A DNA stretch of 64,000 bases from Sphaerisporangium rubeum (GTDB lineage: Bacteria > Actinomycetota > Actinomycetes > Streptosporangiales > Streptosporangiaceae): the NCBI RefSeq assembly GCF_014207705.1, contig NZ_JACHIU010000001.1, forward strand, positions 5,882,501 through 5,946,500, read 5' to 3'. The notes beneath the pieces were generated by a model that was not told the DNA's origin, searched no databases, and saw only the letters and a program-made list of their open reading frames with translations. How positions within the stretch are numbered: position 1 is the first letter of the stretch; each line of letters starts with the position of its first letter. The position numbers and the translations under genes are program-made. Shown one piece after another: positions 47,642 to 62,351 of the stretch.

Positions 47642-47791
47642 ACAGCGGTCAAGAAATGGTGATGTAACAATGAGGCGGGGGGATTTGTCTGTCAAGGGTC
47701 ATCTACCCACGTCCTGCCGCCGTGCGGACATCCGGCCGTCGGCGAATTAGAGTCGTACGCGTCCCACCCCCGAGTGAACGAGAGAGCCGCC

Positions 47792-48601
47792 ATGGCGCGC
47801 CAGCAGACCGGGCCCGACTTCATCGAGGCGCTCGCGCGTGGGCTCGACGTGATCAGGGCCTTCGAGGCGGGACGGCCGGTGATGTCGCTGACCGAGGTGG
47901 CGACGGCGGCGGGGCTCGCGCGGCCTACGGCGCGGCGCATTCTGCTGACGTTGCAGGAGCTCGGGTACGCGCGGGCCGAGCGTGGGGGGTACGCGCTGAC
48001 GCCTCGTGTGCTGGAGCTCGGGGTCGCGTACGTGCGGTCGATGAGCTTGTGGGAGGTGGCGCGGCCGCACATGGAGCGGCTGGTGGAGCGGACCGGGGAG
48101 TCGTCCTCGATCGCGCAGCTCGACGGGTCGGACATCGTGTACGTGGCCCGGGTGGCGGTGCCGAAGATCGTGACGTTGTCGGTGGGGATCGGCACGCGGT
48201 TCCCCGCGTTGCAGACGTCGCTCGGCAAGGTGCTGCTGGCGGGGCTGCCGCCGGCGGAGGTGGAGCGGGTGCTCGCCGAGCCGAGCCGGTCGGGGGTCGC
48301 GCCGCGCCGCGCGCCGTGCGCGGAGGAGCGGGACGCGGCGCTGCGCGAGGTGCGGGCCCGGGGGTGGGCCATCACCGACCAGGAGCTGGCGCTCGGGATC
48401 AGGTCGGTGGCGGCGCCGCTGCGGGACGGGGACGGCCGGGTGGTCGCGGCGCTGAACGTCAACGCGCACGCCGCGGAGACGACGGTCGAGAAGTTGCACG
48501 ACGAGCACCTGCCGCTGCTGCTCCAGACGGCGGGGGCCATCAGCGCCGACTGGACGCGCCACCAGTCGGTACCGCAGGTCACGATGGGGACGGCCTCCTG
48601 A
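47792..48601 (+). CDS. IclR-family transcriptional regulator
   Basis: Regulator of 269 aa. The winged HTH (about 10-75) includes MSLTEVATAAGLARPTARRI, followed by the IclR effector-binding domain (SMSLWEVARPHMERLVERTG, LQTSLGKVLLAGLPP, WAITDQELALGIRSVAAPL). The last pattern is typical of PcaR/PobR-type regulators of aromatic catabolism. It is flanked by the amidohydrolase and the CoA-transferase/dioxygenase operon, each preceded by the same inverted repeat. ATG 47792 is preferred to GTG 47774. Confidence 0.9.
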   Translation: MARQQTGPDFIEALARGLDVIRAFEAGRPVMSLTEVATAAGLARPTARRILLTLQELGYARAERGGYALTPRVLELGVAYVRSMSLWEVARPHMERLVERTGESSSIAQLDGSDIVYVARVAVPKIVTLSVGIGTRFPALQTSLGKVLLAGLPPAEVERVLAEPSRSGVAPRRAPCAEERDAALREVRARGWAITDQELALGIRSVAAPLRDGDGRVVAALNVNAHAAETTVEKLHDEHLPLLLQTAGAISADWTRHQSVPQVTMGTAS

Positions 48602-48670
48602 GCCGACCGAGGTGAACGAGGTCCGAGGTGCGCTTGACATCGGTGCGTCGGCGGCAAGAGACTGCCGGAA

Positions 48671-48686
48671 ACGGACTACTGTCCGT
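48671..48686. promoter_or_regulatory. Putative IclR operator, copy 2
   Basis: ACGGAC-TACT-GTCCGT has the same arms and 4-nt spacer as the box at 47626. It lies 29 bp upstream of the CoA-transferase start, where a bound regulator would control the whole downstream operon. Confidence 0.65.
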
Positions 48687-48715
48687 CTGGTGGACGAGAG
48701 GAAGCGGCAGCCACG

Positions 48716-49903
48716 ATGACCTCCCTCGGCGAGAGCGGTGACGGTACGCCACGCGGGCCCTTGGCGGGGCTGCTTGTGGCGGATTTCTCCAGGGTGCTCG
48801 CCGGGCCGTACGCCACGATGCTGCTGGCCGATCTCGGGGCCGAGGTGGTCAAGGTGGAGAGTCCCGGTGGGGACGACACGCGGACCTGGATGCCTCCGGT
48901 GCGGGACGGGGTGTCGACGTACTACCTCGGGGTCAATCGCAACAAGCGGTCGATCGCGCTGGATCTGACCGATGCCGCCGATGTGGAGGTGGCGCGGGAG
49001 CTGGCGCGGCGTGCGGACATCGTGCTGGAGAACTTCAAGCCTGGCGGGTTGCGCAAGTACGGGCTGGACTACGACACGGTGCGCGAAGGCAACCCCGCCG
49101 TGGTGTACGCCTCGATCAGTGGTTTCGGGTCGGGGGACGGTGCGTCCATACCGGGGTACGACCTGATCGTGCAGGCGATGTCCGGCCTGATGAGCCTCAC
49201 CGGGGATCCCGAGGGGCCGCCGTACCGGGCCGGGATATCGGTGTTCGACGTCATGACCGGCATGCACGCCACCATCGGTGTGCTGGCCGCGCTGCACCAC
49301 AGGGCCGCGACGGGTGAGGGTCAGCACGTCGAGGTCAATCTGTTCTCGTCGGCGCTGTCGGGGCTGGTCAACCAGACCAGTGCGGTCGCCGCGGGTGGCG
49401 TGGTGCCGTTCCGGATGGGGAACGCGCATCCCAGTCTGTTCCCGTACGAGCCGTTGCCGGCCGCCGACGGCGATCTGATCGTCACGGCGGGGAACGACGG
49501 CCAGTTCCGCAGGTTGTGCGGGGTGCTCGGGATGCCTGAGCTGGTGGACAACCCGAGGTTCGCGCGCAACCAGGACCGTACGGCCAACCGTGAGGAGCTG
49601 CGTCCGCTGCTGGTGGAGCGGCTGCGGACGCGGCCCAAGATGGAGTGGTTCCGCGAGCTGATCGCGGCCGGTGTCCCGTGCGGGCCGATCAACACGGTGG
49701 ACGCGGGGGTCGCGTTCGGCGAGGAGATCGGTCTCGAACCGGTGGTCGAGGTCGGGGACGGCGACCGCATGGTCCCGTCGATCCGCAACCCGATCCGCTT
49801 CTCGGTGACCGAGGCGCGGTACGACCTGCCACCGCCGCGGCTCGGCGAGCACGGCGCGGAGATCAGGGAGTGGCTGGCCGGGCCGGTAGGAGAGACCTCA
49901 TGA
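48716..49903 (+). CDS. CaiB/BaiF-family (class III) CoA transferase
   Basis: CoA transferase of 395 aa. LLVADFSRVLAGPYATMLLA and DLGAEVVKVESPGGDDTR open the fold. The catalytic Asp is expected in ISVFDVMTGMHA, and GEGQHVEVNLFSSAL is typical. It moves CoA between carboxylic acids. Its stop overlaps the citryl-CoA lyase start by ATGA. The pair suggests activation of a hydroxy-dicarboxylic or tricarboxylic acid to its CoA thioester followed by C-C cleavage. Confidence 0.9.
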   Translation: MTSLGESGDGTPRGPLAGLLVADFSRVLAGPYATMLLADLGAEVVKVESPGGDDTRTWMPPVRDGVSTYYLGVNRNKRSIALDLTDAADVEVARELARRADIVLENFKPGGLRKYGLDYDTVREGNPAVVYASISGFGSGDGASIPGYDLIVQAMSGLMSLTGDPEGPPYRAGISVFDVMTGMHATIGVLAALHHRAATGEGQHVEVNLFSSALSGLVNQTSAVAAGGVVPFRMGNAHPSLFPYEPLPAADGDLIVTAGNDGQFRRLCGVLGMPELVDNPRFARNQDRTANREELRPLLVERLRTRPKMEWFRELIAAGVPCGPINTVDAGVAFGEEIGLEPVVEVGDGDRMVPSIRNPIRFSVTEARYDLPPPRLGEHGAEIREWLAGPVGETS

Positions 49904-50718
49904 GTGGCGAAGGACTGAGTTTCCCCACGTCCATCGGGACGTCCGACCGGGATTCGATCCGGCTGCTCGGACAGGATCTCGCGGCCGATCTCATGGGGAA
50001 GGTCGGGTTCGGTGAGCTGGCGTTCTGGCTGGTGGCGGGACGGCGGCCGACTCCGCGGGAGACGCGGGTGTTCGAGGCCGTGCTGGTGGCGCTGGCCGAT
50101 CATGGGTTCACGCCGACGGCGGTGGCGGCGCGGCTGACGTATCTCAGTGCGCCTGATTCGGTGCAGGGGGCCCTCGCGGCGGGGCTGCTCGGCGGGGGGT
50201 CGCGATTTCTCGGGGTCACCGAGGACTGTGGCCGGTTCCTCGCGGGGGTGCTCGCGGCGCACGACGGGCCGCCTCCGGGGGACGACGAGGGGTACGACGC
50301 GCTTGCGCTCAAAGCCGTCACCGAGGCGCGTGCGGCGCGTTCGTTCGTGCCTGGTCTCGGTCATCCTGTGCACAAGGAGCGGGATCCGCGTACGCCGGTG
50401 CTGCTGGAGATCGCCGAGCAGGAAGGGCTGCGCGGGCCTCACCTGCGGCTTTTCGAGGCGGTCGGCCGGGTGCATCCGCAGGTGCTCGGCCGTGCGCTGC
50501 CGCTGAACGGCGCGGGGGTGTGCGGTGCGGCGCTCGCCGATCTCGGACTGCCGGTGGATCTGCTGCGCGGGTTCGCGCTGCTGGCCCGCGCGGCGGGGCT
50601 GCTCGGTCACATCGCGGAGGAACGGCGCCGGCCGATCGGCATGGACGTGTACCTCGCGGTGGACCGCAACGCCGTGTACACCGCCGATCCCGGCACCTCT
50701 CCGCACACCGCGTCCTAG
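49900..50718 (+). CDS. Citryl-CoA lyase/citrate-synthase-fold protein
   Basis: Protein of 272 aa, much shorter than true citrate synthase (about 430). It retains the catalytic core: FVPGLGHPVHKERDPRTPVL with the active-site His, PLNGAGVCGAALADLGLP, and RRPIGMDVYLAVD near the end. Such short homologues are annotated as citryl-CoA lyases and are often paired with CoA transferases in aromatic degradation. It probably cleaves a citryl-CoA-like thioester. ATG 49900 overlaps the CoA-transferase stop. Confidence 0.8.
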   Translation: MSGEGLSFPTSIGTSDRDSIRLLGQDLAADLMGKVGFGELAFWLVAGRRPTPRETRVFEAVLVALADHGFTPTAVAARLTYLSAPDSVQGALAAGLLGGGSRFLGVTEDCGRFLAGVLAAHDGPPPGDDEGYDALALKAVTEARAARSFVPGLGHPVHKERDPRTPVLLEIAEQEGLRGPHLRLFEAVGRVHPQVLGRALPLNGAGVCGAALADLGLPVDLLRGFALLARAAGLLGHIAEERRRPIGMDVYLAVDRNAVYTADPGTSPHTAS

Positions 50719-50795
50719 ACCGGCATCTTTCAGACACCAAGGCCTAGACCGGAACCTCTCCGTACACCACATCCCAGACCGGCACGTCCCCGGCC
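50686..50795 (+). repeat. Degenerate tandem repeat of about 30 bp across a stop codon
   Basis: Three to four imperfect copies start at 50686, 50718, 50747 and 50777, each beginning GACCGG or GATCCC. The first and third share GGCACCTCTCCG/GGAACCTCTCCG and CACACC/TACACC cores. The first copy encodes the last residues of the citryl-CoA lyase homologue; the others fill the gap to the dioxygenase gene. This looks like duplication of the gene's 3' end. Confidence 0.5.
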
Positions 50796-50808
50796 TTCCG
50801 GAGGTCCG

Positions 50809-51672
50809 ATGGCAACACTCGCCGCGGTGATCGCGTCGACGCATCACCCGTTCTACTACAAGGCCAGCACGGCGCCACCCGAGGAACGGCCTCCGTTCGC
50901 CGACGAGTGGGTGGCCAAGATCATGGCGTTCCGTGAGACGCTCACGCGTGCGCGGCCCGACGTGCTGGTGATGGTGGGTTCGGACCATTTCCACCAGCTG
51001 TGGCTGGACAACATGCCGCAGTTCCTCATCGGCAAGGCGCCGTTCTACGACGCCGGCTACTACAACGAGGAACGTGAGTTCGGCCTGCCGCGCATGCTGC
51101 TGCGCGGCCAGGAGGACCTGTCGGCCCACATGTTGCGCGGCGGCATCGACGGGGGGTTCGACCTGGCGTTCAGCAACGAGCTGCGCATCGACCACAGCAT
51201 CACGTGTCCCATCATCACGCTGCGGCCGGAGGCGGACCTGCCGATCGTGCCGGTGTACACCAACATCTTCGCGCCGCCGTTGCCGCAGCCGAAACGCTTC
51301 GTGCAGCTCGGCCGCATGATCCGCGAGCTGGTGGAGTCGTGGCCGAGCGACCTGCGGGTGGCGGTGGTCGGCACCGGTCATCTGTCGCTGGAGCTCGGCG
51401 GGCCGCGTCAGTTCGGGCCGCACGGCCCTGATCCGGAGTTCGACCGCAAGGCGGTGGAGTGGATCGCGAGCGGCGACATCGAGGCGAGCCTCGCCGAGGT
51501 GACGCTGGACAGCCTGTGGACGCCGGGGAACGCCACGCACGGCTTCATGGACTTCATGCTGATGATGGGGGTCGCGGGTGAGGGGGCCAAGGCCGACCAC
51601 GTGGACACGCTCGACCTGTTCCACACCATGGAGGCGTACTTCACCTGGTATCCCGCAGGAGCGCCGGAATGA
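50809..51672 (+). CDS. LigB-type extradiol ring-cleavage dioxygenase, catalytic subunit
   Basis: Protein of 287 aa of the class III extradiol dioxygenase family. Candidate iron ligands are in ASTHHPFYY (His12/13) and VGSDHFHQLW (His60/62), with a Glu later in the sequence. GTGHLSLELGG is the conserved catalytic His region. Relatives are protocatechuate 4,5-dioxygenase beta (LigB), gallate and related dioxygenases. It overlaps the alpha-subunit gene by ATGA. The ring substrate is unknown. Confidence 0.85.
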   Translation: MATLAAVIASTHHPFYYKASTAPPEERPPFADEWVAKIMAFRETLTRARPDVLVMVGSDHFHQLWLDNMPQFLIGKAPFYDAGYYNEEREFGLPRMLLRGQEDLSAHMLRGGIDGGFDLAFSNELRIDHSITCPIITLRPEADLPIVPVYTNIFAPPLPQPKRFVQLGRMIRELVESWPSDLRVAVVGTGHLSLELGGPRQFGPHGPDPEFDRKAVEWIASGDIEASLAEVTLDSLWTPGNATHGFMDFMLMMGVAGEGAKADHVDTLDLFHTMEAYFTWYPAGAPE

Positions 51673-52031
51673 GCAAGTACCTGATCGACAAGTTCCTGTT
51701 CACCGTGGACCGCGACCCCGACCTGGTGGAGCGGTACCGCGAGGACCCGCGCGGCACCGTCACCTGGTGGGAGGCCGAACGAGCCAACTCGATCCTGAAC
51801 TGTCACAGCGGCGAGGCCAGCACGTGGCTGAAGTTCGAGGACGACGAGCGTGAGGCACTGGCCGCGCACGACTACGTCAAGTTGTTCGAGCTCGGCGCAC
51901 ACCCGTTCCTGACGCTGACGCTGTTCATCGCGATGTTCGAGCGCGACTACGACGAGCCGCTCGGTTTCCAGCTCGCGTACGCCGCGCGGCTCGCGCACTT
52001 CGACCTGCCGTACCCGGACATCGCCACCTGA
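51669..52031 (+). CDS. LigA-type dioxygenase small subunit
   Basis: Protein of 120 aa of the protocatechuate 4,5-dioxygenase alpha-subunit family. It is all-helical: DPDLVERYREDPRGTV is followed by LAAHDYVKLFELGAHPFLT, the LigA motif that caps the LigB active site. It is translationally coupled to the LigB gene and should form the heteromer with it. Confidence 0.85.
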   Translation: MSKYLIDKFLFTVDRDPDLVERYREDPRGTVTWWEAERANSILNCHSGEASTWLKFEDDEREALAAHDYVKLFELGAHPFLTLTLFIAMFERDYDEPLGFQLAYAARLAHFDLPYPDIAT

Positions 52032-52041
52032 AGGAGCCGGC

Positions 52042-53016
52042 ATGCGGGCCGCGTTCATCGAGGAGTGCGGACGGCCGCCGCGGGTCGCCGCGCACCGGGC
52101 CGTACGCCGTGACGGGGACGCCGTCGTCGCGGTGACGGCCGCGCCGATCACGCCGCTCGACGTCCTGTGCGCCACCGGCACGTCGTACCTCGGCCGGCCC
52201 GCGCTGCCGTACGTGCCGGGTGCGCAGGGGGTCGGCGTCGTCGAGGAGGCCAGGGGGCTCGCTCCCGGCACGCGGGTGTGGTTCCCCACGGACGCCGGGA
52301 TGCGTCCGGGGGACGGCAGCATGGCCGGCCGGTGCGCGGTGCCGGAGAGCGACCTCGTGGTGCTGCCGGCCGAGGTGGACGACCGGCTGACCGCCGCGCT
52401 CGGCCTGTCGGCCGTGGCCGCGTGGGCCGCGCTGACCTGGCGTGCCGGGTTCCGGCGCGGTGAGCAGGTGGTGGTGCTCGGTGCGGGTGGCGTGGTGGGT
52501 CAGGTCGCGGCGCAGGCGGCGCGGCTGCTCGGCGCACGGCGGGTGGTCTGCGTGTGCCGTCCCGGGGCCGCCGCGGAACGCGCCACGGCGGCCGGCGCGG
52601 ACGCCGTGGTGACCCTCGTCCCCGGCGAGGACGCCTCGGCGCTGGCCGAGCGCCTGTCGCGTGAGCTGGACGGCGGCGCCGACGTGGTGGTGGACCCGGT
52701 GTTCGGCGTCCCCGCCACGGCCGCCGCACGGCTGCTCGCGCCGCACGGCCGGCTGGTCAACCTCGGCGGCTCCGCCGGGGACGGCGCGACGTTCGAGTCC
52801 TCCGTGCTGCGCGGCAGAGCCGCCGCCGTGCTCGGCTACACCAACAACGACCTGACGGCGGCACGCAAAGGCGAGGTGCTGCGCGAGGTCCTCACCCACG
52901 CCGCCGCCGGCCGGCTGCGGGTGGCGTTCGAGGCCGTACCGCTCGACGACGTCGCCGACGCCTGGTCACGGCAGGCGCGCGGCGAGGCGGAAAGCCGCCT
53001 GGTCGTCGTCCCCTGA
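52042..53016 (+). CDS. Quinone oxidoreductase-like MDR protein
   Basis: NADP-dependent MDR protein of 324 aa. The GroES-like domain includes ITPLDVLCATGTSYLG and LPYVPGAQGVGVVEE. The Rossmann motif is VVVLGAGGVVGQVAAQAAR, and DGGADVVVDPVFG and GRLVNLGGSAG are typical of quinone or enoyl reductases. No zinc ligands are seen. It is the last gene of the catabolic operon, 10 bp after the LigA gene, and may reduce an unsaturated cleavage product. Confidence 0.85.
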   Translation: MRAAFIEECGRPPRVAAHRAVRRDGDAVVAVTAAPITPLDVLCATGTSYLGRPALPYVPGAQGVGVVEEARGLAPGTRVWFPTDAGMRPGDGSMAGRCAVPESDLVVLPAEVDDRLTAALGLSAVAAWAALTWRAGFRRGEQVVVLGAGGVVGQVAAQAARLLGARRVVCVCRPGAAAERATAAGADAVVTLVPGEDASALAERLSRELDGGADVVVDPVFGVPATAAARLLAPHGRLVNLGGSAGDGATFESSVLRGRAAAVLGYTNNDLTAARKGEVLREVLTHAAAGRLRVAFEAVPLDDVADAWSRQARGEAESRLVVVP

Positions 53017-53060: not shown

Positions 53061-54281
53061 TCACGGAAGCCGCGTGACCGTGTCGCGCCTGCGGCGCAGG
53101 AAGCCCCGCTCGGCGGTGTTGGCGGTGAGGGTCATCGCGGTGTCGTAGGCCCGCGCCGCCTCCTCCGCGCGGCCGAGGCGGCGCAGCAGGTCGGCACGCA
53201 CGGCGTGCCACACGTGGTAGCCGTCGAGACCGAGCCCTTCGGTGACCGCCAGGCCCGCGGCCGGGCCGTCCACCTCCGCCACCGCGACCGCGCGGTTGAG
53301 CGCCACCACCGGGGTCGGGGTCAGGGACAGCAGCAGGTCGTACAGCCGCAGGATCTGATCCCAGTCGGTGGCCGCGGCGATCGGCGCGTCGGCGTGCACC
53401 GCGTTGATCGCGGCCTGCACCTGGTACGGCCCCGGCCGGTCGCGCCGCAGGCACCGGCGCACCAGGTCCTGGCCTTCGGCGACGAGCGCGCCGTCCCACC
53501 GGGCCCGGTCCTGCTCGGCGAGCGGCACGAGCGCGCCGTCCGGGCCGGTGCGCGCGGCACGGCGCGCCTCGACGAGCAGCATGAGGGCCAGCAGCCCGAG
53601 CGCCTCCGGTTCGTCCGGCATCAGTTCCACCAGCACCCTGCCGAGCCGCACGGCCTCCGCGCACAGCTCGGCCCGGGTGAGGTCGTCACCGGAACCGGCC
53701 ACGTACCCCTCGTTGAAGATCAGGTAGATGACGGCGAGCACGGCGCGCAGCCGGTCAGGCAGGTCGGCCTCCGCCGGCACGCGGTACGGGATGCGCGCGT
53801 CGCGGATCTTGGCTTTGGCGCGGACCAGGCGCTGCGCCATGGTCGGCTCAGGCACGAGGAAGGCCCGCGCGATCTGCGCGGTGGTGAGCCCGCCGAGCAG
53901 GCGGAGCGTCAGCGCCACCCTGGCCGCGGGTGCGAGCGCGGGGTGACAGCAGGTGAAGATCAGCCGGAGCCGGTCGTCGCGCACGGGGCCCTCCTCCAGC
54001 GGTTCCTCCCCGGCGTGCAGCAGCGCGGCCTCGGCGTGCCGGTCGTCGCGGGTCGCCTCGCGGCGCAGCCGGTCGATCGCGCGGTTGCGTGCCGTGGTGA
54101 TGATCCAGCCGGCCGGGCTCGGCGGGGTGCCGGTGGCCGGCCAGGTGCGCAGGGCCGTCGCGAAGGCGTCCTGGACCGCCTCCTCGGCGAGGTGGATGTC
54201 GCCGAGGACGCGGACCAGGACGGCCACCGCGCGGCCGTACTCGGCGCGGAAGACCCGGCCGATCTCGGAGGTGACCTCCAC
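53061..54281 (-). CDS. ECF42-type sigma factor with C-terminal TPR-like domain
   Basis: Sigma factor of 406 aa. Region 2 is [20 protein letters not shown] with [16 protein letters not shown], and region 4 is [20 protein letters not shown] with [16 protein letters not shown]. The long C-terminal extension (about 180-406, [20 protein letters not shown] and [15 protein letters not shown]) is the SnoaL-independent TPR-like domain of the ECF42 group. Members lack classical anti-sigma factors and are linked to adjacent DGPF genes. The GTG start directly follows the DGPF stop (TGA-GTG). Confidence 0.95.
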
Positions 54282-54641
54282 TCAGCCGCCGGCGCGCAGC
54301 ATGGGCCGTACCTCGACCGGCAGCAGGCCGATCGCCTCGGTCAGCCTGCGACCCCAGGCGAGGGCCTCGTCCAGGTCGGCCGCCTGGATGACCGTGAAGC
54401 CGCCGATGTGCTCCTTGCCTTCGGTGTACGGCCCGTCGGTCATCAGCACCTCGCCTTCCTCGGGCCGCAGCACGGTGGCGGTGCCGGGGTCGTGCAGCGC
54501 GGCGGTGAAGACCCAGACGCCGGCGTCCTTCATCTCGGCGTTCAGCGTGTCCAGCCGCCGCATGACGGGGCCGAGCACCTCGGGGCCGGGGGCCGGGCCG
54601 TCGGGCTGGTAGATGGTGAGCATGTAGTACTGCGTGTCCAC
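54282..54641 (-). CDS. YCII-related (DGPF) domain protein
   Basis: Protein of 119 aa. The motif TDGPYTEGKEHIGGFTVIQA is the DGPF signature, and DLDEALAWGRRL follows. DGPF genes are the usual partners and presumed targets of ECF42 sigma factors. GTG 54641 is chosen because GGAGGGAAC precedes it and the domain starts at once. It is co-transcribed with the sigma factor. Confidence 0.9.
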   Translation of the reverse strand: MDTQYYMLTIYQPDGPAPGPEVLGPVMRRLDTLNAEMKDAGVWVFTAALHDPGTATVLRPEEGEVLMTDGPYTEGKEHIGGFTVIQAADLDEALAWGRRLTEAIGLLPVEVRPMLRAGG

Positions 54642-54722
54642 GTTCCCTCCACGGGTGCGAGGTGTGTCTTCACCTCCTACACGAACGGGAGACGGCCGCA
54701 TCGACAGCCGCGCGGCGGAAAT

Positions 54723-57587
54723 CTATCGCGCCACGCCTTCCAGATAGTGGGCCAGTGCGGCCAGGGTGGGGAGACGGTACAGCGTGGCGAGCGGTATCGG
54801 ACGGCCGAGCCAGCCGGTCAGCTCGGTGTGCAGTTCGGCCAGCACCAGGGAGTCCAGGCCGTGCTCGTCGATGGGACGGTCGGGGTCAACCTCACGAGCG
54901 GGACAGTTGAGGTGCCCGGCCACGTGGGACACCAGCCACGCGCTGATCTCGTCGGCGGACGGATGGGACGCCACGGCCGCCGCCTGATCGACCGGAGAGA
55001 CCCGCGCCGCCGGCGAGCAGACCTGTCCGTCAAGCGGCTCGGACGCCGCCGGGCCGTCCGCCTCGGCGACGATGTCCTGCTCGGCCCGCAGGTCCCGTAT
55101 GACGCAGTCGACGGTGACGTTCCTGTCGTGCCCGGCCCCCATCTCCCACCGGATGCCGTCCCCCCGGACCTCTCCCGGGGTCCTGGCGGGGTCGTGGCCG
55201 GTGACGGGCTTCTGCCGTCCGGGGCCGCCGGTGAACGGTTGCGCCGCCGGCCGCTCCTGCGGGGTGAAGAAACGGCGGACCAGGTCGCGCGCGTACGCGA
55301 TGTTCGTCTCGATCAGCTCGGCCGCGACCAGGCTGCCGGCGTGGTAGGTGTGCTCGGCCCCCTGCGACCGCTCGATCCTGTCCATGATCCCGGACGCGAG
55401 GTCGGCGGGGCCGAAGTGCGGCATGTAGTCCCAGCGGCACACCTGGAGCACCTCGTCGACGCGGCCGTTGAGCCGTTCCATGCTCTCCGCCGTGAGGACC
55501 GCCGGCGCGTCGTCGTCCATGCCTTCGGCGCCGTAGCAGTAACAGGTGCAGACGTCCTGGTCGGGATACCTGCTGTGGTAGGCGCTGAGGCCCCGCGCCG
55601 GGCCGGGGAACATGTAGAAGCCGTGCCGCGGGACGCCGGAGACGCGGCACACGACCGTGCGGAAGTCGATCGTGCGGATCCGCGCGGCGACGTCGCGTTC
55701 CAGGTCGGTGGGTCGCAGCAGGTGGAGCACGCGGTCGAGTGCCACGGTGAGCAGCAGGTCGTCGGCCTCGACGGGTCCTGAGCCGGCGATGTTCACGGTG
55801 ACGCCGTCCGGCCGGCGTTCGATCGACTCGATCCGCACACCGGTCCGCACGTCGGACAGCTCCTCGGCGACCCGTCGCCACAGCCTGGCGAAGCCGCCTT
55901 TGATCGTGAAGGTGCCTGAGCGGCGGTGCAGGGAGCGGTTCACCGGGATCAGGCCGGTGTGCTCGGCGAACTTGAGGAAGTACAGCGCCGGCATCTCGTC
56001 GAGCGAGCCGTATCCGCAGCTGGTGTAGCCGACGCCGAGTGCCGTCGCGAGGCCGGTGACGCCGAGTTCGTTCAGCAGCTCGGACGTGGGACGGGCCAGC
56101 GCGGCGGCGCTGTGCGCGAGGCCGGGCCTCGCCACCTCGGGGAAGAACTCCGCGCGCAGATGGTGGTAGCGGCTGATCACCTCAGGCGGCGGCAGCGGCA
56201 TGGGTTCCACGTGGCAGTTCGGGATGTCGTACACGAACGCCGGTGTGGTGGGCTCGGTCTCGACGCCGAGTTCGCAGGCCAGGCTGAGCAGTTCGGTGTA
56301 CCGGGTCGTGCAGATGTGCGCGCCGAGGTCGTACACCCGGCCGTCGATCCGCACCGAGGCGGACTTGCCCGCGACCTCGTCCGCGCTCTCCAGCACCACG
56401 ACCCGGTGGCCGAGGCGTTCCAGCTCACGGGCCGCGGTGAGACCGCTCGGCCCCGCGCCGACCACGCACACCGTGCGCCGTTCCTGTGCCCCCTCCGCCG
56501 CGGGCTCGCGCACCGTGACGGGGGTGTGGCGCGGACGTCCATCGGTGAGGCCGGAACGCGCCTCGTGGGCCGGGCCGTAGACGAGGGCCCGCAGATGGTT
56601 GATGGAGGCGGGCTCGTACGGGGTGCGGGCGAGCGCGATGCCGAGGCCTTCCGGGGCCACGGCGGGGTCGAACAGCAACTGCTCGGCGGTGACGCCGTCC
56701 AGCAGGCCGTGGAAGCGCAGCGTCGCGAGGGTCCGGTACGCGTACCGGTGCGGAAGCCACGGAAGTGACGCGTCGAGCGCGGACCGGTTGGCGTCCGCGT
56801 CGTCCCCCAGCGGGTGGCGTTGCGCCTGGAGCAGCAGCGTGAAGCCGCCTTCGGCGACCCTGGACCGCAGATCGTTCCACAGCAGCGACGGCGGCCGGTC
56901 GTCCGCCGGGTCGCGTTCCAAGGAGTCAGGCGGGGCCGGCGGGAAGCGGCGGCCGTGCGGGTCGTGGAACCCGACGTCCATGGCGTGCTCGGAGATCACG
57001 ACCCGGTACCGGATCAGTTCGGGGCCCTCGCCGGTCACGTGCAGGCGCGGCGCCTTGGAGTAGTAGTGGTAGGCCGCGTACGACACCGGCTCGCGCACGC
57101 CGTCCCACACGGCGTCCCGCATGCCGGGGAACTCCCTGGCCAGTTCCTCGCGCGCCTCGTCGCCGCCGACCATGTAGCGGGTGTACGCCGCGGCGTGCGG
57201 CACGAACAGCAGCCGGCCGGTGCTCATGGTGAGGTTGAACGGCGACCGCGACGGGTCGTGCGGGGCCTGCGGGTCGAGGAGCATCAGCGACATGCCGCGT
57301 GTGTCCGGCGCGACGTCGTCGGAGGACGCCGAGTTGCTGAACCGCGTGTACACCGGGTAAGTGCCGGTGAGGAACGGGTGCGGCGACGCGCCTGGCGTGA
57401 ATTCGATCTCCCCCTGGACGCCGACCGCGTCCGCGTACATGACGCGGCGTCCCGTGATCCGGCTGTGCCTGATCGCCGCGCCGTACCGGCCGATCAGCCG
57501 GCCGAACTCCTCGTCCACCGCATGCAGTTCCGGGTCGCCGGGGCCGGTCGACCCGCGCACCCCCGGTGCAACGTCCCGGCCCGCCAT
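54723..57587 (-). CDS. Catalase-related heme domain / PUFA-isomerase-like flavoprotein / acyl carrier fusion
   Basis: Fusion protein of 954 aa. Residues 1-350 resemble catalase-related hemoproteins: YPVYTRFSNSASSDDVAPDT, a SINHLRALVY segment giving the proximal RxxxY heme motif (Arg333, Tyr337), but VMYADAVGVQGE with Tyr51 where catalases have the distal His. Residues 370-840 are a flavin domain (TVCVVGAGPSGLTAARELER) whose SCGYGSLDEMPALYFLKF and ARDLVRRFF segments match, from memory, the Propionibacterium polyunsaturated fatty acid isomerase. Residues 877-954 are an acyl carrier domain with Ser913 in GLDSLVLAEL. The ATG overlaps the FAAL stop (TGATG). The likely role is oxidation or isomerisation of an ACP-bound fatty acid. 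Confidence 0.85.
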   Translation of the reverse strand: MAGRDVAPGVRGSTGPGDPELHAVDEEFGRLIGRYGAAIRHSRITGRRVMYADAVGVQGEIEFTPGASPHPFLTGTYPVYTRFSNSASSDDVAPDTRGMSLMLLDPQAPHDPSRSPFNLTMSTGRLLFVPHAAAYTRYMVGGDEAREELAREFPGMRDAVWDGVREPVSYAAYHYYSKAPRLHVTGEGPELIRYRVVISEHAMDVGFHDPHGRRFPPAPPDSLERDPADDRPPSLLWNDLRSRVAEGGFTLLLQAQRHPLGDDADANRSALDASLPWLPHRYAYRTLATLRFHGLLDGVTAEQLLFDPAVAPEGLGIALARTPYEPASINHLRALVYGPAHEARSGLTDGRPRHTPVTVREPAAEGAQERRTVCVVGAGPSGLTAARELERLGHRVVVLESADEVAGKSASVRIDGRVYDLGAHICTTRYTELLSLACELGVETEPTTPAFVYDIPNCHVEPMPLPPPEVISRYHHLRAEFFPEVARPGLAHSAAALARPTSELLNELGVTGLATALGVGYTSCGYGSLDEMPALYFLKFAEHTGLIPVNRSLHRRSGTFTIKGGFARLWRRVAEELSDVRTGVRIESIERRPDGVTVNIAGSGPVEADDLLLTVALDRVLHLLRPTDLERDVAARIRTIDFRTVVCRVSGVPRHGFYMFPGPARGLSAYHSRYPDQDVCTCYCYGAEGMDDDAPAVLTAESMERLNGRVDEVLQVCRWDYMPHFGPADLASGIMDRIERSQGAEHTYHAGSLVAAELIETNIAYARDLVRRFFTPQERPAAQPFTGGPGRQKPVTGHDPARTPGEVRGDGIRWEMGAGHDRNVTVDCVIRDLRAEQDIVAEADGPAASEPLDGQVCSPAARVSPVDQAAAVASHPSADEISAWLVSHVAGHLNCPAREVDPDRPIDEHGLDSLVLAELHTELTGWLGRPIPLATLYRLPTLAALAHYLEGVAR

Positions 57588-59398
57588 CAGGTGTCACGCT
57601 CCTCGGGGGTCACCGGCCAGACGGCGGCCTCGCCTTTCAGGTACGCCTCGCGGCAGGCGGAGCGGCGGATCTTCCCGCTGGTGGTCTTGAGCACCAGCCC
57701 GCGTGGGCCGAGCACGACCTCGGCGGCGACGCCGTGGTCACGGCTCACCACGCCGCGGACGGCGCGGGTGATCTCGGCGGCCTCCTCGAGGGACGGCGCG
57801 TCGCCGTTGGTCTCGGCGAACACGACGATCCGTTCCCCGGCGGCCTCGTCCCGCGGGGCCGGCACCGAGAACGCGGCCACGCCGCCGGGACGGATCACCG
57901 GGTGCGCGTCGCGCAGGCTGTCCTCGATGTCCTGCGGGTAGTGGTTGTGGCCCCTGATGATGATGAGGTCCTTGTAGCGGCCGGTGACGAACAGTTCGCC
58001 GTCGTGGACGAACCCGAGGTCGCCGGTGCGCAGGTACCGCCGCGGGTCGCCGTCGGCCACCACGGCGCGGAACGTCGCCTCGGTCTCCTCAGGCAGGCCC
58101 CAGTACCCGCGGGCCTTCGTGACGGAGTCCACCCAGATCTCGCCGACCTCCTCCGGGCCGCACGGCTCCATGGTGCGGGGGTCGACGATCCGCAGCCGTG
58201 CGCCTGGCTTGGTCACCCACCCGCAGGCGTGGTACGCCACCGCCGGACGGCCGTCGTCGTCCGCCAGCGGCACGGCCTTCCCCTTCTCGATCGCCTCGGC
58301 GTCCACCCGAAGCGGCCCGCTGCCTCCCATGGTGATGCTCAAGGTGTGCTCGGCCATGCCGTACGTCGGGTAGAAGGCCCGCGGCGGGAACCCGGAGGGG
58401 GTGAACGCCTCCAGGAACCGGCTGACGGTGCCGGGCCGGATCAGTTCGCCTGACGAGCCGACGACCCGCAGCGACCGCAGATCCAGCCGCGCGCGCCGTT
58501 CTGGGGTGGTCTTGCGGACGACCAGGTCGAACGCGAAGTTCGGCGCCGCGGTGTGCGTGGCGCGCACCCGTGAGATCACCTCCAGCCACAGCGCGGGATC
58601 ACGCAGGAAGGTCAGCGGCGACATGACGTAGGTGCGCGAGGAGAACCCGACGACGGTGTCGAGCAGGAAGCTGACCAGCCCGAGATCGTGGAAGTGCGGC
58701 ACCCACGTCACCGCGACGGTGTCGTCGCCGAGGCCGAGGTCGCGCGCGATGGCGATCAGCTCGTGGTGGATGTTGCGGTGGCTGACCACCACCCCTTTGG
58801 GGGTCCCGGTGGACCCGGAGGTGTACTGCAGGAACACCGGCTCGTCGAGGTCCGCCGGCTCGTACCACCGGCCGAACACCTCGTCGGTGGCGGCCTCGGC
58901 CGCGGTTCCCGGGTGGGTGGACACCCAGGGGACGGCGGGCCACCGGCTGTCCGGTGTGACGAGCGAGCGGTAGTCGTCGTGGGTGAGCAGGGCCGCCGCT
59001 GCGGAACCCGCGACCACGGCGGACAGGACCTCGGCGTCGTATCCCGGCCGGAACGGGTTCGGCGGCGCCACCGGGACCGGTACGACGCCTGCGGCGAGGC
59101 AGCCGAGGAACGCGCTCACGAAGTCCAGCGACGGCAGGTACAGCAGCACCGCGCGGTCACCCTGCCGCAGCCCGTGATCGAGCAGCAGGCCGCGGATCCG
59201 CTCGGTCTCGGCCACCAGGCCCGTGACGTCGAGCGAGCCGGCGTCCCGTCCTGCCTCGTCGACGTACACCAGGAGCACCCGCCGGGGGACCCGCTCGTAC
59301 AGCGCGCGCAACGCCGCGAGCAGCGTCCACTCCCCTGGTGGCATCCCCGGCACCACCCCTGCCGCCTGACTTCTCGCCATCCCCCCGGAAGCGGTCAC
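57587..59398 (-). CDS. Fatty acyl-AMP ligase (FAAL)
   Basis: Adenylating enzyme of 603 aa. The phosphate-binding motif is QYTSGSTGTPKGVVVSH. FHDLGLVSFLLD, YPTYGMAEHTLSITMGG, the ATP-ribose Asp in YLRTGDLGF and IIIRGHNHYPQDIEDSL are typical of FAALs, which load fatty acids onto carrier proteins instead of making acyl-CoA. The catalytic Lys is near the end in KTTSGKIRRS. GTG 59398 follows GAGGGGG; ATG 59380 is also in frame. It is translationally coupled to the ACP-containing fusion, its obvious acceptor. Confidence 0.92.
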   Translation of the reverse strand: MTASGGMARSQAAGVVPGMPPGEWTLLAALRALYERVPRRVLLVYVDEAGRDAGSLDVTGLVAETERIRGLLLDHGLRQGDRAVLLYLPSLDFVSAFLGCLAAGVVPVPVAPPNPFRPGYDAEVLSAVVAGSAAAALLTHDDYRSLVTPDSRWPAVPWVSTHPGTAAEAATDEVFGRWYEPADLDEPVFLQYTSGSTGTPKGVVVSHRNIHHELIAIARDLGLGDDTVAVTWVPHFHDLGLVSFLLDTVVGFSSRTYVMSPLTFLRDPALWLEVISRVRATHTAAPNFAFDLVVRKTTPERRARLDLRSLRVVGSSGELIRPGTVSRFLEAFTPSGFPPRAFYPTYGMAEHTLSITMGGSGPLRVDAEAIEKGKAVPLADDDGRPAVAYHACGWVTKPGARLRIVDPRTMEPCGPEEVGEIWVDSVTKARGYWGLPEETEATFRAVVADGDPRRYLRTGDLGFVHDGELFVTGRYKDLIIIRGHNHYPQDIEDSLRDAHPVIRPGGVAAFSVPAPRDEAAGERIVVFAETNGDAPSLEEAAEITRAVRGVVSRDHGVAAEVVLGPRGLVLKTTSGKIRRSACREAYLKGEAAVWPVTPEERDT

Positions 59399-60776: not shown

Positions 60777-62351
60777 ATGTATCCGGAGCAGGGGCCTGGC
60801 AGGTTATCCCCGAAGCGGGGGCGGCGGGAGCAGTTGATCCTGGCGGGCAAGTTCGTCGTCGGCGCGATCACGTTCGCGATCACCGTGGTGGCGTTCTACT
60901 TCGCGCTCGTCGACCGGCCGGCCAAGCCCACCGTCGAGGAGTGGAAGGCCAAGGCCGGCGCGGCCTGCGAGCGCAACTTCGGCAGCGCGCAGGTGTCGCT
61001 GCACACGGCGCTCCTGCAGGTGGCGCCGCTGGTCAAGTCGCCGCCGCCGGCGGGTAAGCAGGACCCCGCGCTCACCAACGTGCTCCACTCGATCGACCAG
61101 ATCGCCTCGGCGTTCCGCGTCCTGAACGCCGACATCCGGGAGATCCCGGTGCCTGAGGAGGCCAGCAAGGCCGACATCGACGCGTTGCTCTCCGCCAACC
61201 AGGACGTGGCGGCCACGTTCAGCGCCATCTCCACGACGCTCGTCAACTACCAGGTGGGGCAGGTCAGCACCGGCGACCTGCAGAAGACCACCTCGACGAT
61301 GCAGAAGCTGACCGCCACCACACTGCCCTCGTGGATCGCCGGCGCGCGGCGGCTCGGCCTCACCCCGTGCCTCGTGATCATGGGAGGCGACCTGCCGTCC
61401 ACCCCGTCGTCCGCGCCTCCGGCGACCCCGGCCCCGCCGAGCGCCGAGCCGACCCCCGAGCCGACGCCGTCCCCCTCGGGTACCGGCCTCACCGAGCCGG
61501 AGCAGGCGCTGGTCGCGATGCTGAGCACCAACGTCATGATCGACTGTGACCCGGCGCGTGACGAGGAGACCGACGAGATCGTCGCGGCGGTCAACTGCAC
61601 CGCCGCGCGCAACGGCCCGTCCAAACGGCCGCTGGTGATGCGGTTCGCCGACAAGGACGCCTTGAACAGGTGGATCCGCACGCGTTCGGTGGGCCTGCCG
61701 GACCGCGGCTGCGGCAACGGCGACTCCACCGGCGACTGGCAGCACGACAAGGTCGACGTCGGCATCCTCACCTGCAAGCCCGGCAACGACGACAACTACC
61801 TGGCGTTGTGGACGTTCCCCGACGACAACATCGGCGTCATCGCCGAGGCCGCCGACCGCAAGACCATCTGGAAGTGGTGGACCAAGAACGCCTACCTCGT
61901 GACGCGTCCCGTCCCGTCCCCCACCGCCTTCTCCCCCGCCGAGCAGGCCCTGGTCGGCCGGTTGAAGACCAGCGTCCTGAAGAGCTGCGACCCGCGGCCC
62001 GACGAGGAGAACGACGGCGTGATCGCCGCCGTCAACTGCACCGCCACCCGCACCGGCCCGGCCAAGCGTCCCCTGGTGATGCGATTCTCCTCCGACGACT
62101 CCCTGAAGACCTGGCTCGACGGCCACACCAAGGGCCTGTCCGACGCGGGCTGCAGCAACGGCGACTCCGCCGCGGCCTGGAACCACGAAGGCACCGTCAA
62201 GGGCACGCTCGTCTGCAAGCCCGGTGACGACGACAACTACCTGGCCATCTGGACCTTCGACTCCGAGCGCATCGCCGTCATCGCCGAGGCCGCCGATCGT
62301 GGGACCATCCGCGCCTGGTGGGCCAAGAACGCCAACCTGATCGTCGGCTGA
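60777..62351 (+). CDS. Membrane-anchored surface protein with two duplicated Cys-rich domains
   Basis: Protein of 524 aa. A basic cytoplasmic tail is followed by one transmembrane helix (about 24-44), a helical extracellular region with two Cys (60-200) and a Pro/Ser/Thr linker (210-240). Two copies of a domain of about 115 residues complete it: one with IVAAVNCTAARNGP, KRPLVMRF, CGNGDSTGDW, TCKPGNDDNYLALWTF and WKWWTKN; the other with the matching VIAAVNCTATRTGP, CSNGDSAAAW and VCKPGDDDNYLAIWTF. Four Cys in each copy are conserved. Similar domains occur outside the membrane on actinobacterial Ser/Thr kinases, but no kinase domain is present here. Role unknown. Confidence 0.75.
   Translation: MYPEQGPGRLSPKRGRREQLILAGKFVVGAITFAITVVAFYFALVDRPAKPTVEEWKAKAGAACERNFGSAQVSLHTALLQVAPLVKSPPPAGKQDPALTNVLHSIDQIASAFRVLNADIREIPVPEEASKADIDALLSANQDVAATFSAISTTLVNYQVGQVSTGDLQKTTSTMQKLTATTLPSWIAGARRLGLTPCLVIMGGDLPSTPSSAPPATPAPPSAEPTPEPTPSPSGTGLTEPEQALVAMLSTNVMIDCDPARDEETDEIVAAVNCTAARNGPSKRPLVMRFADKDALNRWIRTRSVGLPDRGCGNGDSTGDWQHDKVDVGILTCKPGNDDNYLALWTFPDDNIGVIAEAADRKTIWKWWTKNAYLVTRPVPSPTAFSPAEQALVGRLKTSVLKSCDPRPDEENDGVIAAVNCTATRTGPAKRPLVMRFSSDDSLKTWLDGHTKGLSDAGCSNGDSAAAWNHEGTVKGTLVCKPGDDDNYLAIWTFDSERIAVIAEAADRGTIRAWWAKNANLIVG

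Follow-up and report, generated by a model that had tools for sequence, protein, structure and literature searches.

The window analysed here comprises 64,000 nucleotides of the Sphaerisporangium rubeum genome (NCBI RefSeq assembly GCF_014207705.1, contig NZ_JACHIU010000001.1, positions 5,882,501 to 5,946,500). Our subject is a pair of genes on its minus strand, one for a fatty acyl-AMP ligase (FAAL) and, directly downstream, one for a fusion protein. The FAAL gene (57587..59398) is an open reading frame (ORF) of 603 amino acids with a GTG start and a match to the AMP-binding family. The fusion gene (54723..57587) encodes 954 amino acids, comprising a heme domain of the type found in coral allene oxide synthase (cAOS), a flavin domain resembling the polyunsaturated fatty acid (PUFA) isomerase PAI, and an acyl carrier domain. 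Positions refer to the window, and all features of the two genes lie on the minus strand. An earlier note, made from the letters of the sequence, had described an FAAL overlapping a three-domain fusion of this length at TGATG. Both ORFs are indeed present, and the overlap (57585..57589) consists of a TGA stop and an ATG start sharing one base, the junction reading ...GACACCTGATGGCGG. This arrangement may suggest translational coupling of the two genes. For the FAAL gene, the G+C content at third codon positions amounts to 0.93, for the fusion gene to 0.92. The genome (7.5 Mb, one contig) holds a single full copy of the fusion; three further matches to it are short stretches covering the flavin-binding start only.

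The FAAL protein matches the Pfam family AMP-binding (E 2.2e-58). Its top NCBIfam model is the fatty-acid--AMP ligase PRK05850 (357 bits), against 269 bits (PRK07768) and 142 bits (PRK06187) for two models named after CoA ligases; among the best 25 of 104 models, none reaches its curated cut-off. A PDB search with the protein gives 18 chains at E<=1e-40, the best of which include FAALs; the remaining top ones carry different names and are presumably FAAL domains as well. The best match thus lies among FAALs rather than acyl-CoA ligases, and the protein is a predicted FAAL on this ground. A FAAL-specific insertion is named in the consulted part of a review of these enzymes (PMC11837247).

The flavin domain (residues 370-776, 55260..56480) displays a GAGPSG dinucleotide-binding motif. 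Pfam assigns residues 381-646 to Amino_oxidase (E 3e-28), in addition to further dinucleotide-binding families. Used as a single sequence, the domain matches the P. acnes PUFA isomerase (PDB 2b9w) across residues 372-774 (E 3.3e-25), and a profile of nine sequences matches the same structure over its full length at E 3.6e-61. The runner-up chain, an amine oxidase, reaches 2.2e-24 and covers profile positions 3-250 of 417. Identity as an amine oxidase or phytoene desaturase, which the earlier note had named as the outcome that would speak against a PAI-like domain, is rejected on these partial and far weaker matches; PAI outscores every such enzyme of known structure. The domain resembles PAI in its full-length homology, its dinucleotide-binding motif and a GYG motif, and differs from it in overall sequence (24.9% identity over 394 columns) and in three residues, namely Arg88, Phe168 and Phe193, which are not kept in the window. 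We take these three to be gate and pocket residues of PAI, with Arg88 as the carboxylate gate, and PAI itself to be a single-domain protein acting on a free fatty acid. The window protein has Pro, Cys and His in the corresponding columns, with short alignment gaps at the first and the last; the presumed gate and pocket are not matched here.

The heme domain occupies residues 19-350 (56538..57533). As a single sequence it matches cAOS (PDB 1u5u) across residues 47-339 (E 2.6e-10), and a profile of five sequences raises this to 1.6e-40. Another structure, 3e4w (1.3e-12), is an uncharacterised protein which we take to be a minimal catalase relative from a mycobacterium, and true catalases score 1.5e-8 or weaker. 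Pfam reports no family at E<=1 in this part of the window protein, and ordinary annotation will therefore miss the domain. The Catalase family (PF00199) reaches its gathering score in none of the five heme domains at hand (the window protein and four relatives described below), and it is listed only for two relatives, those at loci L014 (E 0.006) and L017 (E 0.0013). A generic catalase identity is rejected, since all five domains stay below this cut-off and cAOS scores far higher. Of the "catalase-related heme domain" first proposed, the heme-type fold is thus borne out, and the type is that of cAOS rather than of catalase in general.

A linker (residues 777-881, 54945..55259), delimited by alignment and the longest in the set of relatives, leads to the carrier domain (residues 882-950, 54738..54944), which matches Pfam PP-binding at residues 884-949 (E 7.3e-13). 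The motif GLDSL is read at residues 910-914, and the serine reported as intact before is Ser913 (54849..54851), the expected site of phosphopantetheine attachment.

Relatives were sought with the 954-aa protein as query in taxon samples that overlap each other, the window's own genome being counted in the samples of the family, order, class and phylum. Matches were obtained in 7 of 297 genomes of the family and 5 of 200 of the order (both at E<=1e-30, the latter adding nothing new), 3 of 216 of the class (1e-25), 5 of 147 from another order of the class (1e-20), and 1 of 178 of the phylum (1e-15). Together this amounts to 12 distinct genomes. A scan of named genomes added one locus from Lentzea flava (L019), the single confirmed case among 47 pattern-matching stretches. 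No relative was found on viral contigs (66 pattern-matching stretches, none confirmed), and plasmids yielded one distant PAI-like protein from Photobacterium, whose neighbours are uninformative by reading and which is excluded from the counts below. The resulting 13 loci fall into seven with a carrier-fused protein (window, L013, L014, L015, L016, L017, L019) and six with an unfused flavin protein (L018, L022, L031-L034); they are not independent, four of the unfused ones being closely related. The phosphopantetheine serine is kept in all seven carrier-fused proteins. The cAOS-like domain is present in five of them (window, L013, L014, L015, L017) and lacking in L016 and L019.

An FAAL gene stands directly upstream of six of the seven carrier-fused genes (window, L013, L014, L015, L016, L019). 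The two genes overlap in five of these cases, by TGATG in the window and L019 and by GTGA in L013, L014 and L015, and are separated by a short gap in L016. Near the six unfused genes, no FAAL was detected by BLAST (E limit 1e-4) within 7.1-9.7 kb on either side. The arrangement of FAAL and fusion, which recurs across other genomes as the earlier note had asked to be checked, is thus not due to chance, and the proposed logic of an FAAL serving the built-in carrier gains support from this distribution.

The seventh carrier-fused gene (L017, in genome G152) shows no FAAL in the stretches read and lies in a different setting. Its cluster encodes a PfaA-like arrangement (a KS-AT-ACP protein with a KR domain behind it), a PfaC-like protein with KS and two FabA domains, another of PfaD type (FabD_helical_ins 1.6e-34, PfaD_N weak), a PfaB-like acyltransferase protein and a thioesterase, whose stop overlaps the start of the fusion gene by GTGA. 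PUFA synthase systems of the PfaABCD type keep their chains bound to an acyl carrier protein (ACP), according to the consulted parts of the literature. A polyunsaturated chain is the best guess for the substrate on the strength of this link. In a search of eight genomes, PfaD_N was found in G152 and in G081 only. The latter genome shares its genus with the window and carries a PUFA synthase locus (L036, 8236-19878) on a contig other than that of its FAAL and flavin-carrier pair. The G152 protein further contains a 275-aa segment between its heme and flavin domains (L017, 9356-10180) with no convincing match in Pfam or the PDB.

Thioesterases of two unrelated folds are adjacent or fused at five of the seven carrier-fused loci. 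A 4HBT_3 hotdog thioesterase directly follows the fusion in L013, L014 and L015. In L017 the thioesterase is an alpha/beta-hydrolase situated before the fusion, and in L019 one of this fold is part of the fusion itself. The Lentzea flava protein (L019, 9935-13555, 1207 aa) combines flavin, carrier, thioesterase and cytochrome P450 domains and is preceded by an FAAL; its P450 may substitute for the catalase-fold heme domain. A divergent P450 gene is also detected by Pfam near L014, with a counterpart in L015 (80% identical).

The column of PAI Arg88 holds proline in all seven carrier-fused proteins (Pro449 in the window, 56241..56243, with a short alignment gap adjacent). Arginine is found in four of the six unfused proteins (L022, L031-L033), and the distant protein from Photobacterium has glutamine. 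Should Arg88 bind the free carboxylate, proline in every carrier-fused protein fits a thioester substrate, and the loss of the arginine may reflect such a substrate.

Based on this dataset, we lean towards a reading of the two genes as a self-contained cassette that remodels a carrier-tethered fatty acid. From the domain identities, the conserved serine, the coupling to FAAL, the recurrence of the pair, the links to thioesterases and PUFA synthase, and the states of the residues, all of which are observed, we infer loading, substrate, flavin reaction, heme reaction and release as follows. The FAAL would adenylate a free unsaturated fatty acid and load it onto the fusion through the phosphopantetheine at Ser913. 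The PAI-like domain would then move or add double bonds on the tethered chain, either by transfer of a hydride to flavin adenine dinucleotide (FAD) and back or by net dehydrogenation, and its product would be a conjugated polyene acyl-ACP. In orthologues that retain the distal heme residues, the cAOS-like domain would oxidise this chain by hydroperoxide rearrangement or peroxygenation, and a thioesterase would free the product. The heme step of the window copy has probably been changed or lost, and release would have to come from another enzyme.

Several observations weigh against this reading. The window genome lacks a match to PfaD_N, and the G152 arrangement occurs in one of eight genomes of its genus (a search of these genomes with the G152 protein found it in G152 only); the link to PUFA synthase thus rests on one locus. 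Neither the window nor L016 shows a BLAST match to either type of thioesterase found in the relatives. The carrier of L014 stays below the Pfam cut-off (16.6 vs 20.8 bits). The unfused L018 also has proline at the Arg88 column, which breaks the association of proline with the carrier, and L034 has glutamine; PAI Phe168 and Phe193 are kept in none of the 13 family proteins, the Phe193 column lying in a gapped region. Four unfused relatives whose flavin domains are 49-50% identical to that of the window (L022, L031-L033) adjoin Gfo/Idh/MocA oxidoreductases and a sugar-type ABC transporter. Structure prediction was uninformative, with a mean predicted local distance difference test (pLDDT) score of 33.9 for the heme domain alone and 38.9 for flavin and carrier together with one relative; within the latter, the carrier part alone is reasonably predicted. 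Finally, the distal histidine and asparagine of the heme pocket are replaced in the window copy.

This last point bears directly on the strongest alternative, namely that the heme domain of the window is a vestige which folds and perhaps binds heme but carries out no peroxide reaction, so that only FAAL, flavin domain and carrier work. The cAOS heme-pocket residues used for comparison are those given in the consulted part of PMC5617202. At the positions of cAOS Thr66-His67 the window has Met50-Tyr51 (57435..57440), and at that of Asn137 it has Ser122 (57222..57224). The histidine is present in all four relatives that have the domain and the asparagine in three of them, with valine in L017; the threonine is kept in none, three relatives having phenylalanine and one alanine. 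With the distal His and Asn replaced, hydroperoxide chemistry is doubtful in the window copy, and with it the previous proposal that the heme domain acts on a peroxide or hydroperoxide. A tree of the flavin domain places the window together with L016 and L018 (96/95 support). Neither of these has a heme domain, and this again suits a vestige. On the other hand, Tyr337 at the position of the proximal heme ligand (cAOS Tyr353, 56577..56579) is invariant in all five domains, and Arg48, Arg82 and Arg344, the three heme arginines, are kept in the window as in all four relatives. The branch leading to the window is also no longer for the heme domain (0.49) than for the flavin domain (0.54), which argues that the domain is not simply decaying. 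For the closest pair, L014 and L015, NG86 estimates of dN/dS are about 0.43 (heme) and about 0.54 (flavin), other pairs being too diverged. In the window the heme domain is still maintained, though its reaction has probably been altered or lost; a complete vestige seems to us a serious possibility, albeit one we would not bet on.

A second alternative concerns the flavin domain, which might act as an acyl-ACP oxidase or desaturase, dehydrogenating the chain on the carrier and passing electrons to oxygen, with the fused heme domain either using the resulting hydrogen peroxide as a peroxygenase or breaking it down. Members of the amine-oxidase superfamily, to which the flavin domain belongs, commonly make hydrogen peroxide. 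Heme and flavin domains share one chain in five of the seven carrier-fused proteins. Lipoxygenase (PF00305) was matched in none of the eight genomes searched, yet none of 14 control genomes was matched either; if the absence is true, a working heme domain needs another source of peroxide, and the fused flavin domain is the obvious candidate. Against this stand the two carrier-fused proteins without a heme domain (L016, L019), the distal histidine missing from the window's heme pocket, and the nearest solved relative, PAI, which is an isomerase (consulted part of PMC13365329). We regard this oxidase as rather unlikely. About the same modest chance may be given to a bolder form of the cassette reading, in which the cassette would constitute an oxylipin assembly line independent of lipoxygenase: the flavin domain would conjugate or desaturate a tethered PUFA and make the peroxide on the spot, the catalase-fold heme domain of that protein would turn the chain into an epoxide, an allene oxide or a cleaved product, and a thioesterase would release it.

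Instead of yielding a free product, the cassette could supply a starter unit to a distant polyketide or peptide synthase. Units of FAAL and carrier often feed such synthases, as stated in the consulted part of the FAAL review (PMC11837247), and the relatives' thioesterases have no BLAST match in the window. Nevertheless, a thioesterase accompanies five of the seven carrier-fused loci, and the genes nearest to the cassette in the window encode no synthase but an aldo-keto reductase, a YCII protein and a sigma factor, which makes this role improbable to a degree similar to that of the oxidase.

Action of the flavin domain on a non-lipid substrate, as may be the case for the four relatives next to Gfo/Idh/MocA and transporter genes, is very unlikely given the ties of the carrier-fused members to FAAL, PUFA synthase and thioesterases, although these sugar-type neighbourhoods do imply that the substrate cannot be read off from homology to PAI and that the subfamily is not restricted to fatty acids. 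The four unfused genes in question (L022, 9161-10729; L031, 7123-8520; L032, 7630-9192; L033, 7285-8682) share one similar neighbourhood, assigned by Pfam on eight neighbours in L031 and L033 and by reading in L022 and L032. The more distant flavin protein of L034 (6261-9128, genome G550), also unfused, adjoins a ketosynthase gene.

The cassette, read as one that remodels a tethered fatty acid, can be compared with four known systems. In alkyne and polyyne cassettes such as jamABC, FAAL loads an ACP and desaturases act on the ACP-bound chain; polyyne clusters add a thioesterase and rubredoxin, with a P450 as replacement in 10 actinobacterial genomes (consulted parts of PMC8406139 and PMC11837247). 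The window shares with them FAAL and acyl carrier, the probable modification of a carrier-bound chain, and, among its relatives, thioesterase or P450 companions. The parallel with FAAL-desaturase-ACP units drawn in the earlier note is supported and extends to these thioesterases. The difference lies in the PAI-like and cAOS-like domains fused to the carrier, and in the lack of a membrane desaturase among the 16 other window ORFs scanned. With cAOS and cHPL (PDB 1u5u, 3dy5), the best structural match, the window protein has in common the proximal tyrosine, the three heme arginines and the position of the domain at the N-terminus of a lipid-modifying enzyme. In the coral enzymes the fused partner is a lipoxygenase, which provides the hydroperoxide (consulted part of PMC5617202), whereas the partner in the window is a flavin domain with a carrier, and the distal His and Asn of the window copy are replaced. 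The PfaABCD systems are linked to the family by the one relative inside such a cluster (G152), and differ in that the window genome lacks PfaD_N and that the consulted passages on pfa gene sets name no such fusion. PAI is the fourth system (see above).

Among the open-access papers listed in literature searches, none describes the combination of flavin, heme and carrier domains with FAAL, as judged by titles and the starts of abstracts, subscription papers being mostly outside this scope. The terms catalase, isomerase, flavin and heme are absent from the main text of the FAAL review (PMC11837247), as are catalase, flavin and FAAL from two papers of 2026 about hybrids of PUFA synthases (PMC12964715, PMC13291983). 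This agrees with the former statement that no characterised pathway with the fusion is known, and is weak evidence for novelty.

If the cassette reading is true, flavin chemistry and the chemistry of catalase-fold heme would join the tailoring of carrier-tethered fatty acids, which is best known for alkyne-making desaturases. The cassette would provide a genetic handle on conjugated or oxygenated bacterial lipids. The natural series of proteins with distal heme residues kept, with these altered, with the domain absent, or with a P450 fused would offer a probe of cAOS-type heme without an evident lipoxygenase.

In the surroundings of the cassette, genes for a YCII-domain protein and for a sigma factor that includes a DUF6596 region (53061-54701, minus strand) begin 21 bases past the fusion gene on the same strand. 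The two look like an ECF42/DGPF pair and could be a regulator or operon partner of the cassette; neither has a BLAST match near the relatives of the fusion. Further along, on the plus strand (47774-53016), lie genes for an IclR regulator, a CoA-transferase III, a citrate-synthase-like C-terminal part, a LigB-type ring-cleavage dioxygenase, a 120-aa protein that matches no Pfam family, and a zinc alcohol dehydrogenase, which together look like a cluster for the degradation of aromatic compounds. On the other side of the FAAL gene, a plus-strand gene (60777-62351) encodes a protein of 524 amino acids without a Pfam match, in which two similar C-terminal repeats seem to be present by reading.

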